DNA of 64,000 nt, from assembly GCF_900188485.1 (NCBI RefSeq), contig NZ_FZPH01000017.1, positions 62,001 to 126,000 on the forward strand, written 5' to 3'. A model generated the notes under the pieces. That model ran no database searches and was not told the DNA's origin. It saw nothing but the letters and a program-made list of their open reading frames with translations. The position numbers and the translations under genes are program-made. Positions 7,428 through 64,000 of this stretch are shown here, one piece after another. Within the stretch, counting starts at the first letter, position 1. Every line of letters starts with the position of its first letter. This stretch comes from Asanoa hainanensis (GTDB taxonomy: Bacteria; Actinomycetota; Actinomycetes; Mycobacteriales; Micromonosporaceae).

Positions 7428-8336
7428 ATGTATGGAGTGATCGTCACGGCACCCGGCGGACCCGAGGTGCTGCAGGTGGCCGAGCTACCCGATCCGGTAG
7501 CGGCGCCCGGGCAGGTCGTGGTGCGGGTGCGGGCCGTCTGCGTGCAGCCCGCCGACATCGCGGCCCGCGTCGGCATGATCCCCGGCGGCCCGGTGCCGCC
7601 GCCCTTCCTGCCCGGCTGGGACATCGCCGGGGAGGTGGACTCGGTGGGTGCGGAGGTCACCGAGTTCCAGCCCGGCGACCGCGTCGTCGGGATGATCCCG
7701 TGGTACCTGACCCGCGGCACGCCCGGCGGATACGCGGAGCTGGTCGCGGCCGACGCCGGCTGGCTCGTCCGGGTGCCGGACGGCCTCGACCTCGCGTCGG
7801 CAGCCACGGCGCCGCTCAACGCGGTCACCGCACACCAGGCCCTGGCGATGCTGTCGCTGGCGGACGCCTCGACGGTGCTGGTCACCGGTGCCAGCGGCGG
7901 GGTGGGCGGGTTCGCCGTGCAGCTCGCCGCGCAGCGGGGTCACCGGGTGCTCGCGGGAGCCACCCACGACGACGAGGAATGGGTCGCCGCCCTCGGCGCG
8001 GCCGAGGTGATCGCGCGCTCGACCGACCTGGCCACGGTCGGCCCGGTCGGCGCGGTGCTGGACGCGATCCCGCTCGGCGACGCGGCGCTGCCGGCCGTCG
8101 CGGACGACGGCATCGTGGTGACGACCCGCCCGACGCCACCGACCGACCGCAAGGTGCGCCAACAGCTCCAGCTCATCCACCTGGACCGCGACGTGCTGGC
8201 CGAGCTCGTGGCGGCCATGGGCGCCGGCACGCTGCGCACGCGGGTCGCGACCACGATCCCCCTGCGCGAAGCCGCGGAGGCCCACCGCCTGGTCGAGGCC
8301 GGCGGCCTGCGCGGAAAGGTCGTGCTGACGGCGTAA
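7428..8336 (+). CDS. NADPH:quinone oxidoreductase-like MDR protein
   Basis: A 302-residue zinc-free medium-chain dehydrogenase/reductase. The N-terminal catalytic domain begins MYGVIVTAPGGPEVLQ, and the Rossmann motif is VLVTGASGGVGGFAVQLAA. The cysteine ligands of zinc enzymes are missing, so it belongs with quinone oxidoreductases (QOR/zeta-crystallin type) that reduce quinones or enones with NADPH. CATACT at 7416-7421, six bases before the ATG, suggests a leaderless transcript. It is followed by a hairpin at 8342-8375. Confidence 0.88.
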   Translation: MYGVIVTAPGGPEVLQVAELPDPVAAPGQVVVRVRAVCVQPADIAARVGMIPGGPVPPPFLPGWDIAGEVDSVGAEVTEFQPGDRVVGMIPWYLTRGTPGGYAELVAADAGWLVRVPDGLDLASAATAPLNAVTAHQALAMLSLADASTVLVTGASGGVGGFAVQLAAQRGHRVLAGATHDDEEWVAALGAAEVIARSTDLATVGPVGAVLDAIPLGDAALPAVADDGIVVTTRPTPPTDRKVRQQLQLIHLDRDVLAELVAAMGAGTLRTRVATTIPLREAAEAHRLVEAGGLRGKVVLTA

Positions 8337-8341
8337 CCGGT

Positions 8342-8375
8342 CGGCCCGGTCCGCTACTCGAAGCGGGCCGGGTCG
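8342..8375. terminator. Hairpin between convergent genes
   Basis: Imperfect inverted repeat: CGGCCCGGTCCGCT (8342-8355) pairs with AGCGGGCCGGGTCG (8362-8375) around a six-base loop, two positions mismatched or wobble. It lies between the convergent quinone oxidoreductase and YrdC genes, overlapping the 3' end of the latter. No T-run follows. Confidence 0.5.
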
Positions 8376-8974
8376 CCCGCGCCGCGGCGGAGGATGACCG
8401 GCTCGTCGTCGCTCCAGTCGATCACCGTGGTCGGGACCGTGCCGCAGTCGCCCGAGTCGACCACCGCGTCCACCGCGTGGTCGAGGCGTTCCTTGATCTC
8501 CCAGCCCTGGGTCATCGGCTCCTCGTCGCCCGGCAGGAGCAGCGAGCTCGACACCAGCGGCTCCCCGAGGGCTTCGAGCAGCGCCTGCGCGACGACGTGG
8601 TCCGGGATGCGGACGCCGACGGTGCGTTTGCGCGGGTGCTGCAAGCGGCGCGGTACTTCTTTCGTCGCCGGCAGGATGAACGTGTAGCTGCCCGGCGTCG
8701 CGGCCCGCACGGCCCGGAAGCGGGCGTTGTTGATCTGCACGAACTGGCCCAGCTGGCTGAAGTCGCGGCAGACCAGCGTGAAGTGGTGGCCGTTGTCGAG
8801 GTGACGGATGCGGCGGATCCGGTCGACGCCGTCGACGTTGCCGAGCCGGCAGCCGAACGCGTACAGCGAGTCCGTGGGATAGGCCACCAGCCCGCCGCCG
8901 TCGATCAGGTCGACCACCTGGCCGACCGTCCGGGGCGCGGGGTTGTCCGGATGCAGGTCGAAGTACCTCGCCAC
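8354..8974 (-). CDS. YrdC/Sua5/YciO-family L-threonylcarbamoyladenylate synthase-like protein
   Basis: A 206-residue single-domain YrdC-fold protein. The N-terminal GGLVAYPTDSLYAFGC block, the LDNGHHFTLVCRDFSQL region, the ATPGSYTFILPATKEVPRRLQHPRKRTVGVRIP segment and VSSSLLLPGDEEP match the YciO/Sua5 family that binds ATP and threonine to make TC-AMP for the t6A37 tRNA modification. It lacks the C-terminal Sua5 domain and is closer to YciO than to TsaC (inference), so its exact role is less certain. GTG at 8974 (VARYFDLHPDN) is preferred because longer starts run into the divergent MocR gene. Confidence 0.85.
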   Translation of the reverse strand: MARYFDLHPDNPAPRTVGQVVDLIDGGGLVAYPTDSLYAFGCRLGNVDGVDRIRRIRHLDNGHHFTLVCRDFSQLGQFVQINNARFRAVRAATPGSYTFILPATKEVPRRLQHPRKRTVGVRIPDHVVAQALLEALGEPLVSSSLLLPGDEEPMTQGWEIKERLDHAVDAVVDSGDCGTVPTTVIDWSDDEPVILRRGAGDPARFE

Positions 8975-11431: not shown

Positions 11432-12445
11432 ATGCTCGTCGCCGTTGCCGCGCGCGCCAACGAATCGCTCGCGTTCGTCGAGCGTGAGGTGCCCGAACCG
11501 GGCCTGGGCGAGGTCCTGGTCAAGATCACCGCGTGTGGGGTCTGCTATACGGACCTCGACGTGCTGCGCGGCCACTGGCCCAACGCCCGCTTCCCGCTGG
11601 TGCCGGGCCACGAGATCACCGGCGTCGTGGCCGCCACCGGCCCGGGCGTGACGTGGCCCGAGGTCGGTGCGTCCGTCGGCGCCCAGATCCTCGGCGACTC
11701 GTGCCGGCACTGCGACTACTGCGTGCGCGGCGACCAGATCCTCTGCCCCTGGAAGCGGTTCACGGGCATCGACTTCGACGGCGGGTACGCCGAGTACGCG
11801 GTCCTGAAGGCCGACTTCGTGTCGCCGCTGCCGGACGCGCTCGACCCGGTGGCGGCGGCACCGCTGATGTGCGCCGGGCTGACCGCCTTCAACGGCCTCC
11901 GGCAGGCCGGCACCACACCGACGTCGCGGGTCGCGGTGATCGGGGCCAGCGGCACGCTCGGCCAGCTGGCGGTCCGCTACGCCGTCGCCATGGGAGCCCG
12001 GGTGGCCGCCGTCGGCCGGTCGGCCCGGGGAGCGGACGCGGCCCGCGAGCTGGGCGCCGAGCGCTTCGTCGCCACCCAGGACACGGACCCGGCCCAAGCG
12101 CTCAAGGCCTGGGACGGCGGCGCCACCGTCATCCTCAACGCCGCGCCCTCGACGCCGGCGGCCGCGGCCGCGTTCACCGGCCTCGCCCCCGACGGCACCC
12201 TCGTCCTGTGTGGCTACGGGCCGGATCCGCCGACCCTGCCCATCGACGCGCTGGTGCTCAACCGGCTGCACGCGATGGGCAACCCGTCCGGCTCCCCGCA
12301 CGACGCCCGGGACACCCTGGCTTTCTCGGCGGCGCACGGCATCCTCCCCGACTTCACCCCGATCGGCCTGCGCGACGCCAACCGGGCGCTCGAAGCGATG
12401 GCCCAGGGTCAGTCGGGTCGCCGTTCGATCATCACGTTCGACTGA
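11432..12445 (+). CDS. Zinc-dependent alcohol dehydrogenase (MDR superfamily)
   Basis: A 337-residue zinc MDR enzyme. Catalytic zinc ligands are seen in ACGVC (Cys35/Cys38) and GHE (His60-Glu61). The structural zinc cysteines are 91, 94, 97 and 105 (SCRHCDYCVRGDQILC). The nucleotide-binding domain follows with VAVIGASGTLGQLAVRYA. It would oxidise or reduce an alcohol/aldehyde with NAD(P). Starts at 11408 and 11411 are in frame, but ATG 11432 has a GGGGGG-type RBS seven bases upstream and places the first strand normally. The 3' end overlaps the convergent GH42 gene by 37 bases. Confidence 0.88.
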   Translation: MLVAVAARANESLAFVEREVPEPGLGEVLVKITACGVCYTDLDVLRGHWPNARFPLVPGHEITGVVAATGPGVTWPEVGASVGAQILGDSCRHCDYCVRGDQILCPWKRFTGIDFDGGYAEYAVLKADFVSPLPDALDPVAAAPLMCAGLTAFNGLRQAGTTPTSRVAVIGASGTLGQLAVRYAVAMGARVAAVGRSARGADAARELGAERFVATQDTDPAQALKAWDGGATVILNAAPSTPAAAAAFTGLAPDGTLVLCGYGPDPPTLPIDALVLNRLHAMGNPSGSPHDARDTLAFSAAHGILPDFTPIGLRDANRALEAMAQGQSGRRSIITFD

Positions 12446-14349
12446 ACCGCGCGTACGACCATCGCCGCACCGGGCGGCAGCACGCTGGACGGGGTGACGG
12501 GGTCGCCAGTGAGCAGGTCGACGCCTTCGGCGCCCAGCTCGTACGGCGTCTCCCCGTGGTTGATCGCGAACAGCCAGCTCCGGTCGCCCGCGACGCGCCG
12601 GACGAGCTCCACCCCGGCCGGTGGGCGCGGCCGGACGGGCTCGGCACCGGCCTCTGCCGCGATCGCGCCGAGCAGGTCGGTGTACGCGTCGTCGGCCAAC
12701 CGGGTGGAGACGTACCAGGCGGAGCCGGCCCCGACGCCGTGCCGGGTGACCGCCGGGCGGCCGTCGTCGTAGCAGGCGGTGGCGACCGCGCCGGCCAGGT
12801 GGACGGTCTCGCTCCACCCGGCGGATTCGAGGGGGTGGAACTCCTCGACCCGCACCCCCAGCAGCTCCCGGAGCGCCCCGGGGTATCCGCCGAGCCGCAC
12901 GCGCGCCTGCCCGTCGGCGACACCCGACAGGTAGGTCGCGACGAGCCGACCTCCGCCACCGACCCAGGCGGTCAAGGCGGCGGCCTGTGCGTCCGTGAGC
13001 AGGTACCAGCACGGCAGCACGACGACGGCATAACGGGACAGGTCGTCGAGGGAGCCGATCACGTCGCAGGTGAAGCCCGCCCGCGACAGGGCACGGTGCG
13101 CGTGCCGGGCCTCGGCCCGGTGGTCCACGGTGGACGACGGCAGCACGGTCGCGGTCAGCGCCCACGCGGACGGCTCGTGAAAGCCGACGGCGACTCGCGC
13201 CTCGACCGGCGCGCCGTCCACCTCCGCGGTCCGGGCCAACGCCGGCCCGAGCGCGAGGGCCTCGCGGAAGACCCGGCTGTCGGTGCCGGCGTGCGGCACC
13301 AGCGCCGAGTGGAACAGCTCGGCGCCACCCCGCGAGGCGCGCCACTGGAAGAACATCGCGCCGCGCGAGCCCCGCGCCACCGCCGCGAGCGCTTGACGGG
13401 CCATCCGACCGGGCTCCTTGGTGTGCATCCGGCCAGGCGTGTAGATGAGATTGGGCGCGCTCTCCATCAACAGCCAGCCCGCGTCACCGGACCAACCGCG
13501 GGCGAGATCAGCGAGGAACGCGGCCTCCTCCTCGGCGGCCGGCCCGGACGACGACGGGTAGTGGTCGACGGCGACCAGGTCGACCTCCGACGCCCAACGG
13601 GCATGGTCCACCGGCACCCAGTCGCCGAGCACGAAGTTCGTGGTCACCGGGATGCCCGGAGCCGCCGCCCGGAGCACGTCGCGCTGCTCCCGATAGGCGT
13701 CCAGCAGCTCGTCGGAGGTGAACCGGCGGAAGTCGAGGACCTGCGCGGGATTGGCCAGGTACTGCGTCCTCCGCGGCGGCAGGACCTCCGACCAGTCGCC
13801 GTACCGCTGGCTCCAGAAGGCCGTCGTCCACGCCTCGTTCAGCGCCGCGAGGCTGCCGTAGCGCCGCTGCAGCCAAGAGCGGAAGGCCGAGGCGGTCAGG
13901 TCGCAGTAGCAGGTCGTGCCGTACTCGTTGTGCACCCGCCACATCGCCAGCGCGGGATGGCCGCCGTAGCGCGAACCCAGCGCGAGGGCGATCCGCCGGG
14001 CGGCGCCGCGATACGGGGGCGCGCTGACGCAGTAGGTGTCCCGGCTCCCCGGGCTGAGCCGCACCCCGTCCGGCCCGACCGGCAGCGTCGACGGAAAGCG
14101 CCGGCTGAACCAGGGCGGCGGCGCGGCGGTGGGGGTCGCCAACGCGACCCGGATGCCGGCGTCAGAAAGTCCATCGAGGACAGTGTCGAGCCACGCGAAG
14201 TCGTACCGGCCGGAAATGGGCTCCAGCGCCGACCAGGCGAAGACGCCGACGGTGACCAGGTTGACCCCGGCGGCCCGCATGAGCGCGACGTCCTCCCGCC
14301 ACACGGCCGACATCCACTGCTCGGGGTTGTAGTCGCCGCCGTAGAACAC
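12409..14349 (-). CDS. GH42 beta-galactosidase
   Basis: A 646-residue intracellular glycosidase. The N-terminal YGGDYNPEQW opening is typical of GH42. The acid/base Glu142 is in HNEYG and the nucleophile Glu296 in LLMESAPN. After the TIM barrel come a trimerisation-like domain (VVVLPCWYLLTD, then VGGGGRLVATYLSG) and a C-terminal beta domain. With no signal peptide it should cleave short beta-galactosides after uptake. GTG 14349 begins six bases after the permease stop, so it is the last gene of the sugar ABC operon. Whether the substrate is galactan, arabinogalactan or lactose-like sugar is open. Confidence 0.92.
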   Translation of the reverse strand: MFYGGDYNPEQWMSAVWREDVALMRAAGVNLVTVGVFAWSALEPISGRYDFAWLDTVLDGLSDAGIRVALATPTAAPPPWFSRRFPSTLPVGPDGVRLSPGSRDTYCVSAPPYRGAARRIALALGSRYGGHPALAMWRVHNEYGTTCYCDLTASAFRSWLQRRYGSLAALNEAWTTAFWSQRYGDWSEVLPPRRTQYLANPAQVLDFRRFTSDELLDAYREQRDVLRAAAPGIPVTTNFVLGDWVPVDHARWASEVDLVAVDHYPSSSGPAAEEEAAFLADLARGWSGDAGWLLMESAPNLIYTPGRMHTKEPGRMARQALAAVARGSRGAMFFQWRASRGGAELFHSALVPHAGTDSRVFREALALGPALARTAEVDGAPVEARVAVGFHEPSAWALTATVLPSSTVDHRAEARHAHRALSRAGFTCDVIGSLDDLSRYAVVVLPCWYLLTDAQAAALTAWVGGGGRLVATYLSGVADGQARVRLGGYPGALRELLGVRVEEFHPLESAGWSETVHLAGAVATACYDDGRPAVTRHGVGAGSAWYVSTRLADDAYTDLLGAIAAEAGAEPVRPRPPAGVELVRRVAGDRSWLFAINHGETPYELGAEGVDLLTGDPVTPSSVLPPGAAMVVRAVQSNVMIERRPD

Positions 14350-62178: not shown

Positions 62179-62265
62179 CTCCCTCTGCGATGCTGGCACC
62201 CACCATCGCACATGTCAATGGCTCGATCAGCCAGGCAAGAAGGCGGCTACGCGCCAGGTGGCGCA

Positions 62266-62271
62266 CATAAT
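62266..62271 (+). promoter_or_regulatory. Probable -10 box of the P450 gene
   Basis: CATAAT lies six bases before ATG 62278, fitting a leaderless transcript. The AGGAC next to the ATG is too close to act as a normal RBS. Confidence 0.5.
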
Positions 62272-62277
62272 CAGGAC

Positions 62278-63627
62278 ATGGAGACGGGTCGATGGGTGCT
62301 GGTCAAGTCGGCGGTTCCGGTGATCGGTGGCTCGTTGGCCTACATGCACGACCCGCTCATCCTGATGCGTCAGCTGTACCAGCGCCATGGACCGGTCGCC
62401 CCGGTAGCGATGGCCGGTCCCGGGCCGGCCGCTTTCATTCTCGGCCCGGAGGCCTGTGGCGCCGCCCTGCAGAACGGCGACAAGGCCTTCGTCAACGGCT
62501 GGGAGGCGCTCGTCGGCCCGTTCTTCCACCGTGGACTGATGCTGCTCGACGGCCCGGAACACAAACAGCACCGGCGGATCCTGCAACAGGCGTTCACCCG
62601 CGAGCGGCTCGCCGGCTACACCGCCGCCCTCCATCCTGCGGTGATGTCGGAGCTGCGCGGCTGGCAGGCGGCCGAGCGCTTCCCGGCGTACACGTGGCTC
62701 AAGCGGCTGACCCTCAACCTCGCGACGCAGATCTTCATGGGCGGGCACCGGATAGCTGACCCGCTCGAGCTGGACCGCGTCAACCGGGCCTTCGTCGACT
62801 GCGTGCAGGCCGCCGGCGCCATCCTGCGTGTCGCCGTGGCGGGCAACAAGTGGCACCGGGCAACACGCGGGCGAGCGACCCTGGAGCGGTTCCTCGGCGC
62901 CCACCTGCCGGCGGCCCGAGCGGCCGGAGGTGACGACCTGTTCTCCGTGCTGACCCGGGTCGAGGACGAGGACGGCACCCGCTTCGGCGACGCGGACGTC
63001 GTCAACCACATGATCTTTCTGTTGATGGCGGCGCACGAGACCACGACCTCGACGGTGTCCACCGCCATGTACTACCTGGGGCGTCATCCGGACTGGCAGG
63101 ACCGGGTCCGGGCCGAGGCGGCGGCGCTCGGCCCGACCCCGACCGTGGAACAGCTGAGCGCGTTGCCCGACCTGGACATGGTGATCAAGGAGTGCCAGCG
63201 CCTGGTGGCGCCCGTTCCCGTGGTGGCGCGGCGGGTGGTCAAGGACACCGAGGTGGCCGGCCGGCACCTGCCGGCCGGCACCCGAGCGTTCGTCTGTCAG
63301 CAGCTTTCGCACTACCTACCGGAGCTCTGGACCAGCCCCGAGGCGTTCGATCCCGAGCGGTTCGCGCCGCAGCGATGCGAGGACCGGTCGCACCGGTTCG
63401 CGTGGGCGCCGTTCGGCGGGGGTGTGCACAAGTGCCTGGGGATGGCGTTCTCGAACATCGAGGCGCGGACGGTCCTGGCGCAGGTTCTCCGCCGGTTTCG
63501 GTGGTCGGTGCCGACGCACTACGCGCCGCCGATGAGCAACGTGTCGCTGCCGTACCCGCGCGACGGGTTGCCGGTCGCGCTCCGGCCCACGGCGCCGACC
63601 GGTGGCGGGCGACCCACCCCGGCGTGA
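62278..63627 (+). CDS. Cytochrome P450
   Basis: A 449-residue haem monooxygenase. The I-helix oxygen-activation motif is AAHETTT, the K-helix E-x-x-R is ECQR (Glu305, Arg308), and the haem-thiolate loop is FGGGVHKCLG with Cys386. The FDPERF meander is present (EAFDPERFAPQR). The layout resembles CYP51/CYP120-like bacterial P450s more than short CYP105 types (inference). No ferredoxin gene lies beside it. It is followed 85 bases later by a 45-codon acidic peptide gene, which raises the possibility that it modifies that peptide. Substrate otherwise unknown. Confidence 0.93.
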   Translation: METGRWVLVKSAVPVIGGSLAYMHDPLILMRQLYQRHGPVAPVAMAGPGPAAFILGPEACGAALQNGDKAFVNGWEALVGPFFHRGLMLLDGPEHKQHRRILQQAFTRERLAGYTAALHPAVMSELRGWQAAERFPAYTWLKRLTLNLATQIFMGGHRIADPLELDRVNRAFVDCVQAAGAILRVAVAGNKWHRATRGRATLERFLGAHLPAARAAGGDDLFSVLTRVEDEDGTRFGDADVVNHMIFLLMAAHETTTSTVSTAMYYLGRHPDWQDRVRAEAAALGPTPTVEQLSALPDLDMVIKECQRLVAPVPVVARRVVKDTEVAGRHLPAGTRAFVCQQLSHYLPELWTSPEAFDPERFAPQRCEDRSHRFAWAPFGGGVHKCLGMAFSNIEARTVLAQVLRRFRWSVPTHYAPPMSNVSLPYPRDGLPVALRPTAPTGGGRPTPA

Positions 63628-63669
63628 AACCCCACGGGCGACGGGCATACGAATCGAAGGATGTGCAGA

Positions 63670-63691
63670 TATGATTCCCGGTTAAACCGGG
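63670..63691 (+). promoter_or_regulatory. Promoter -10 and palindromic operator of the small-peptide gene
   Basis: TATGAT at 63670-63675 is a near-consensus -10. Two bases further lies the perfect palindrome CCCGGTT-A-AACCGGG (63677-63691), covering the expected transcription start. An RBS-like AGGGGAG lies between it and ATG 63713. The peptide gene therefore seems separately promoted and regulated. Confidence 0.65.
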
Positions 63692-63712
63692 GAGTCAACG
63701 AGGGGAGCTGCC

Positions 63713-63850
63713 ATGAGGGACAACGTGGACGCGGTCGAGCTGGCTGAGGTCTCGCCGGCCGAGCTGCAGGAGCTGCTGGAAGAGGAGCTTGGCCTCGCGG
63801 CCGGCGACACCGGGTGTGCCGCCTTCGCCGCGCCGATCAAGCAGGACTGA
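63713..63850 (+). CDS. 45-residue acidic peptide, candidate RiPP precursor
   Basis: A short gene with strong support: own -10, operator, AGGGGAG RBS seven bases before ATG, and a hairpin 11 bases after the stop. The peptide begins MRDNVDAVELAEVSPAEL, continues as an acidic amphipathic helix (QELLEEELGL) and ends AAGDTGCAAFAAPIKQD. Acidic leader-like helix, Gly-rich junction and short tail with one Cys (35), Thr (33), Phe (38) and Pro (41) resemble the leader/core layout of ribosomally made, modified peptides. I do not recognise the family. It could also be a small regulatory or structural peptide. Neighbours downstream are outside the window. Confidence 0.7.
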   Translation: MRDNVDAVELAEVSPAELQELLEEELGLAAGDTGCAAFAAPIKQD

Positions 63851-63861
63851 GACCACTGGGT

Positions 63862-63897
63862 GCCGCCGGTCGCGGGTGCGAACCCGCGGCCGGTGGC
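63862..63897 (+). terminator. Hairpin with GNRA loop after the small-peptide gene
   Basis: GCCGCCGGTCGCGGGT (63862-63877) and ACCCGCGGCCGGTGGC (63882-63897) form a 16-pair stem with two G-T type pairs and a GCGA tetraloop. No T-run follows, so it may be a full terminator or a partial one that favours the peptide mRNA over downstream genes. Confidence 0.65.
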
Positions 63898-64000
63898 GCG
63901 CCTCCGGTGCGTACCCCCTGGCTTAGATCATGATTCGAGATCAGGCTCCTAAACTGCGTGGTCGCGGCGCTCATCGCGAACGCAGCGCGGCCGACACCTT
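63898..64000. other. Edge region without a recognised gene
   Basis: About 100 bases to the window edge with no start codon and RBS combination I can support. It contains an AT-richer stretch (63922-63956) with TAAACT, possibly the promoter of a gene beginning beyond the edge. Confidence 0.4.

Follow-up and report, generated by a model that had tools for sequence, protein, structure and literature searches.

The 45-residue peptide encoded near the right edge of the window, a 64,000-nucleotide stretch of the Asanoa hainanensis genome, is highly probably the precursor from which a YcaO-TfuA pair makes a thioamidated, thiovarsolin-like RiPP, and the cytochrome P450 gene beside it is separately inherited and probably outside the pathway. 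The original prediction had described the P450 and the peptide as a possible new RiPP-type system. The adjacency of a P450 gene and a precursor gene in one genome does not make a P450-dependent RiPP, and a likely misreading of the region is thus corrected.

Genes of the cluster and their conservation

The P450 gene and the 45-codon peptide gene (63713–63850, plus strand) were found as originally described: both open reading frames were recovered, the first matched PF00067, and Cys35, Phe38 and Pro41 were present in the peptide. The third-position G+C of the peptide ORF was 0.89. A Pfam search with the 45 residues gave no match, and the matches to NCBIfam precursor models were below threshold. 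Copies with 84% and 91% identity were carried by two other Asanoa species, in each case before a YcaO gene. The peptide gene is real, and very probably encodes a RiPP precursor, with a predicted leader of about residues 1–30 and a core that would lie within residues 31–45. A tRNA search of 20 kb around the cluster found none.

The genes to the right, which the original prediction had proposed to read for modification enzymes, included a YcaO gene, one of the types that it had listed, together with a TfuA gene. The YcaO gene (440 aa; 63930–65252, plus strand, of which the first 71 bases, 63930–64000, lie in the window) begins 79 bp past the peptide stop and matched PF02624 at 2.7e-75. Its best NCBIfam match was TIGR03266, the model for the YcaO of McrA-glycine thioamidation, at 4.6e-80 and 269 bits against an equivalog cut-off of 365. 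The TfuA gene (65249–65938, outside the window) overlaps the YcaO end by 4 bp; it matched PF07812 at 2e-39 and NF033432 at 4.2e-59, with 199.5 of the 235.2 cut-off bits. A convergent MFS transporter gene follows (65929–67128, outside the window; PF07690, 7.9e-24), and to its right lies a SUKH-3 immunity-like gene (5.5e-6) at 67198–67692 in window numbering, or 12199–12693 of the stretch L004. In the accessible text of two publications, YcaO and TfuA form a pair credited with peptide thioamidation (PMC6511847; PMC8120280). Their position directly downstream of the peptide gene supports its reading as a RiPP precursor.

The DNA block of peptide, YcaO, TfuA and MFS genes was kept in A. ishikariensis (window 63690–67186, 86%) and in A. 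iriomotensis (window 63676–67127, 85%), and the YcaO of the window was 93% and 90% identical to the respective proteins. Three of the six Asanoa genomes carried the peptide, and these were the same three that carried TfuA. Upstream of the block, A. ishikariensis has a BTAD-domain (AfsR-type) regulator and A. iriomotensis a gene with a methyltransferase domain; neither has a P450 there. In the family as a whole, TfuA was found in 83 of 354 genomes, several of which had two TfuA matches.

This kind of cluster has already been described. Santos-Aberturas et al. 2019 present the thiovarsolin precursor family as Network 22, which ranges from a non-repeating member, that of A. ishikariensis, to precursors with five repeats (PMC6511847). 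The published A. ishikariensis precursor was equated with the present peptide because a single TfuA match was found in that genome. The system is therefore not new as a kind, and the A. hainanensis peptide is very probably an added member of the thiovarsolin family. Among the open-access titles and abstract openings listed, nothing more recent dealt with the Asanoa cluster; PMC13185837, as far as its accessible part goes, is on thioviridamide-type compounds.

Inheritance of the P450 gene

The P450 gene (62278–63627, plus strand) matched PF00067 at 8.8e-64 and encodes the motifs FGGGVHKCLG and ECQR; its ATG at 62278 agreed with the start positions of the orthologue ORFs aligned to it. The closest solved structure by sequence was CYP120 (5e-45). 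The best NCBIfam match was ApyO, a RiPP P450, with 146.8 of 525 cut-off bits, and the models of albaflavenone and pentalenene oxygenases scored about the same (146.0 and 144.9 bits, respectively). Because the ApyO match is far under the cut-off and level with those of two terpene oxygenases, it carries little information either way.

Orthologues of the P450 with 84–89% identity were found in three of the five other Asanoa genomes, namely A. ishikariensis (G001), G004 and G005; in A. iriomotensis (G002) and G003 the best match was just 30–32% identical. All three orthologues were at unrelated positions. In A. ishikariensis the orthologue and the peptide gene were on different contigs, and the genomes G004 and G005 gave no TfuA match. 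The DNA common to the 50-kb window region and the orthologue stretches was the gene itself (window 62261–63598). Among themselves, the three 20-kb orthologue stretches had the P450 gene in common, and two of them also shared 161 bases, far from the gene in one. No P450 was found next to the peptide gene in either of the two other peptide-bearing Asanoa genomes, and the adjacency was observed in A. hainanensis alone among the six Asanoa genomes examined. Since the orthologues lie elsewhere in three Asanoa genomes, two of them without TfuA, and no P450 stands beside the peptide in the two other peptide-bearing genomes, the peptide and the P450 are inherited separately. The original prediction had proposed the P450 as the modifying enzyme of the peptide and had looked to their co-occurrence in other genomes. 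No such co-occurrence was observed, the P450 not being co-inherited with the precursor as in a P450-dependent RiPP, and this assignment is not supported. The P450 is most likely a bystander without a role in the pathway, although it lies only 85 bp upstream of the peptide gene on the same strand.

The P450 gene of A. hainanensis is flanked by a GH9 cellulase gene. In A. ishikariensis, the alignment blocks leave 40 bp between the homologue of this cellulase gene and that of window-numbered 68411–68939, and the latter is inverted. The segment 62237–68410 (numbered past the window end), which contains the P450 gene, the RiPP block and the SUKH-3-like gene, is absent at the corresponding place in A. 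ishikariensis, with the inversion at its edge. Read most simply, this means that two separately inherited units were joined through rearrangement. Both being inside the missing segment, the P450 gene and the peptide block may also have shared one arrival. On G004:C1, a contig of an Asanoa genome that gave no TfuA match, the P450 gene (5481369–5482685) and the GH9 orthologue (5512465–5514746) were about 30 kb apart, whereas the two are neighbours in A. hainanensis.

It is unlikely that the P450 is a tailoring enzyme recruited in A. hainanensis, where it would oxidise the thioamidated peptide in place of VarO. The common strand, the 85 bp gap, the shared position in the segment missing at the matching place in A. 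ishikariensis and the lack of a VarO match at the Asanoa loci speak for such a recruitment, as do the best match to ApyO, though the terpene oxygenases score nearly equally, and P450s reported near some thioamidated RiPP clusters in the accessible part of PMC8120280. P450 genes were also found at 5 of 35 YcaO loci with a home-made profile, built partly from the Asanoa P450 and its orthologues and run against ORFs of at least 200 codons in stretches of 11–17 kb, which distant P450s could escape. However, none of these five was close to the Asanoa P450: they scored 108–129 bits, compared with 604–623 bits for the Asanoa P450 and its orthologues. The orthologues elsewhere in three genomes, two of which lack a TfuA match, and the two peptide-bearing genomes without a P450 beside the cluster argue against recruitment, and the peptide gene has a conserved promoter-like element of its own past the P450 stop. 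A slightly less probable form of the idea is that a free-standing P450 was captured in this genome beside a minimal peptide-YcaO-TfuA cassette and oxidises the thioamidated peptide, in a part comparable to the one played in S. varsoviensis by VarO, which is heme-oxygenase-like and unrelated. If this were true, the captured P450 would represent a RiPP pathway caught while acquiring a tailoring step.

Precursor family and relation to the thiovarsolins

The thiovarsolin cluster (varAYTO) of Streptomyces varsoviensis has the same gene order of precursor, YcaO and TfuA, a similar leader, a tail alignable as FxAPxxQ, albeit without significance when taken alone, and an MFS gene next to these. In contrast, VarA has five repeats whereas the Asanoa peptide has a single core; Arg follows Pro in VarA, compared with Ile or Leu in Asanoa; and the MFS gene is codirectional there and convergent in Asanoa. 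The Asanoa MFS protein resembled VarP only distantly (28% over 414 columns; blastp, 6e-21), a level of likeness common among MFS proteins, and tblastn with VarP at E 1e-3 gave a match in two of the three Asanoa copies. In S. varsoviensis, the gene assigned to VarO was heme-oxygenase-like (Haem_oxygenas_2, 5.7e-8), and further genes were assigned to VarL (ATP-grasp) and VarS (by position only; Pfam-negative). VarO gave no tblastn match in the window, L004, L005, L007, L008 and L120 (E 0.01; E 1e-3), and the Asanoa stretches searched with VarL and VarS at E 1e-3 were likewise negative.

As in Network 22, the Asanoa precursor gene stands directly before adjoining YcaO and TfuA genes, and its leader is VarA-like, the score being reached by 0 of 1000 shuffles. 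In pairwise alignment the peptide scored 52 against VarA (maximum of 1000 shuffles, 41) and 56 against the VarA leader with one repeat (maximum of 1000 shuffles, 38). Its tail, FAAPIKQ, could be aligned with the VarA repeat containing the thiovarsolin core FSAPRAQ, and the score of the core alone was equalled by 259 of 5000 shuffles. The peptide matched NF033878, the thiovarsolin model, at 0.0019 with 18.4 bits against a cut-off of 35, its core was not repeated, and no VarO gene was found nearby. Against the thiovarsolin-kind reading, both precursor models and the YcaO and TfuA equivalog models stayed below their cut-offs, and VarO, VarL and VarS were unmatched.

An HMM built from the three Asanoa peptides was run on 4038 short ORFs from 36 loci and recovered the three copies first. 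The next matches were 13 precursors ending in His-Cys, at 13 of 35 YcaO loci (E 1.6e-5 to 0.0016), which we read as thioamitide-like. The match to VarA of S. varsoviensis was weak (E 0.11), and three others were weaker (0.69 to 0.98). What the profile matches had in common was chiefly the leader, ELAxxSxxELQxxLEE. Peptides with the leader motif were also observed in two other settings. In L013 and L037 (Actinacidiphila) and in L014, L033 and L036 (Amycolatopsis) they had a tail ending in TIMTSIE and lay directly after TfuA, not before YcaO, and are possibly another family of thioamide precursors. A Plantactinospora peptide (L032, 7663–7896), with the tail LSQPFALLPAEIRN, lay shortly before YcaO.

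When 354 genomes of the family were searched with the peptide at E <= 0.1, eight genomes matched: three of Asanoa together with G182, G209, G267, G314 and G109. The last four were taken as chance, as these genomes were not among the 83 with TfuA; in 10 kb around the G267 match no YcaO or TfuA was found. G182, from another genus of the family, encodes the relative MNQDTELTAAELQSLLESRVTSAGGDTGLTTFIAATADTAE at 8328–8453 on the minus strand of L120 (G182:C1:2194000-2210000), directly before a YcaO (62%) and a TfuA (63%) gene, and no P450 was found near it in 16 kb. This peptide retains GDTG and F.A and has lost AP. G182 joined Asanoa in the YcaO tree with support of 99/97. Asanoa was a firm group in this tree and in that of TfuA, where G182 had no firm place. 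Neither tree gave S. varsoviensis a firm place, and in the YcaO tree VarY was not joined specifically to Asanoa.

The NCBIfam thiovarsolin model gave 11 matches at E <= 0.01 in 394 genomes of the class, none above the cut-off; its misses mean little, because the genome of the window itself had no match at E <= 0.01. One matched genome, G633, showed no YcaO or TfuA in 11 kb, and another, G665, showed a thioamitide-like leader with a partial YcaO at the edge.

Taken as the precursor of a thiovarsolin-kind product, the peptide would be bound by YcaO and TfuA through its acidic helical leader, around VSPAELQELLEEE, and a backbone amide oxygen in the tail would be swapped for sulfur. If the Pro-Arg bond of the thiovarsolins is a guide, the thioamide might be at Pro41-Ile42. 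This position is a guess, since 259 of 5000 shuffles align as well as the core does and the G182 relative without AP counts against a confident placement. Host peptidases would then free a small thioamidated peptide, which the convergent MFS protein may export; the P450 would be a stand-alone gene brought beside the cluster by rearrangement. The likely product is a short, linear, thioamide-bearing peptide. That such a gene set could suffice follows from the thiovarsolin work, where, in the accessible text, varAYT alone led to thiovarsolins B and D (PMC6511847); its main text makes no mention of a P450. A very small thioamide cluster of precursor, YcaO and TfuA genes with a single-core precursor suits asking which part of the leader is read by the YcaO-TfuA pair and which amide is converted.

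Thioamitides include thioviridamide, thiostreptamide S4 and thioholgamide, and share with the Asanoa cluster the YcaO-TfuA pair and the leader motif; they differ in the core and the remaining gene set. The best precursor match of the peptide was in fact NF033415, the thioviridamide family (1.6e-5), and its leader resembles such precursors. Nevertheless, a thioamitide cluster is very improbable: the match reached 25.4 bits against a cut-off of 40 and was limited to the leader (residues 5–32); a His-Cys end like that of the 13 precursors above is missing from the tail; and the conserved block holds only the peptide, YcaO, TfuA and MFS genes. Biarylitides, atropopeptides and cittilins are P450-modified RiPPs, and a short precursor near a P450 is what the Asanoa locus has in common with them. 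The original prediction had rightly noted that the tail without paired aromatics does not fit these families, and a P450-only RiPP of their type, suggested by the short peptide gene adjoining the P450, is the least probable reading, as the Asanoa P450 is not co-inherited, an aromatic crosslink motif is missing, and YcaO and TfuA follow in a context conserved without P450 in two relatives.

Signals around the peptide gene

The peptide gene had been predicted to have its own TATGAT -10 element, a perfect palindrome over the start site, a strong ribosome-binding site and a hairpin after the stop. TATGAT was present at 63670–63675, as its sole plus-strand copy in 64 kb, inside a promoter-like element (63652–63678, plus strand) that consists of AATCGAAGG at 63652–63660 and GATATGATTCC at 63668–63678. 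The two parts, 16 nt apart from start to start, kept one register throughout the three Asanoa copies and stood at -45, -146 and -122 relative to the ATG; the patterns were picked after the alignment of these copies had been viewed. In A. ishikariensis each part had two differences, and TATGAT was replaced by TATGCT. A consensus scan of 63500–64000 found no plus-strand sigma-70-type promoter and no terminator. The two-part element, with its register constant across three of three copies, lends the putative promoter some comparative support, and the earlier statement that the peptide is surely expressed exceeds this evidence.

The palindrome CCCGGTTAAACCGGG (63677–63691) was indeed perfect, with a one-base centre. 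As its sequence was unconserved in the alignment of the other two Asanoa copies, and inverted repeats with arms of 7 and a loop of 0–1 occurred at 26 places in the window, it is by itself weak evidence, and a special operator at the start site was set aside on these grounds. The ribosome-binding site GAGGGGAG (63700–63707, plus strand) was confirmed at 5 nt from the ATG, with GGAG retained in the relatives.

The 16-pair hairpin in the interval between the precursor and YcaO genes (63862–63897, plus strand) was likewise verified and was kept in all three Asanoa copies. A 58-base piece containing it folded at -44.4, against an average of -28.2 for shuffles (z -5.3), and none of 200 shuffles did as well. 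Two-sided change was observed in 1 of the 16 pairs, which was matched by 168 of 500 shuffles, three sequences being too few for covariation. With no T run behind it, the hairpin differs from a textbook terminator; it might instead have an attenuating or RNA-stabilising role between the precursor and enzyme genes.
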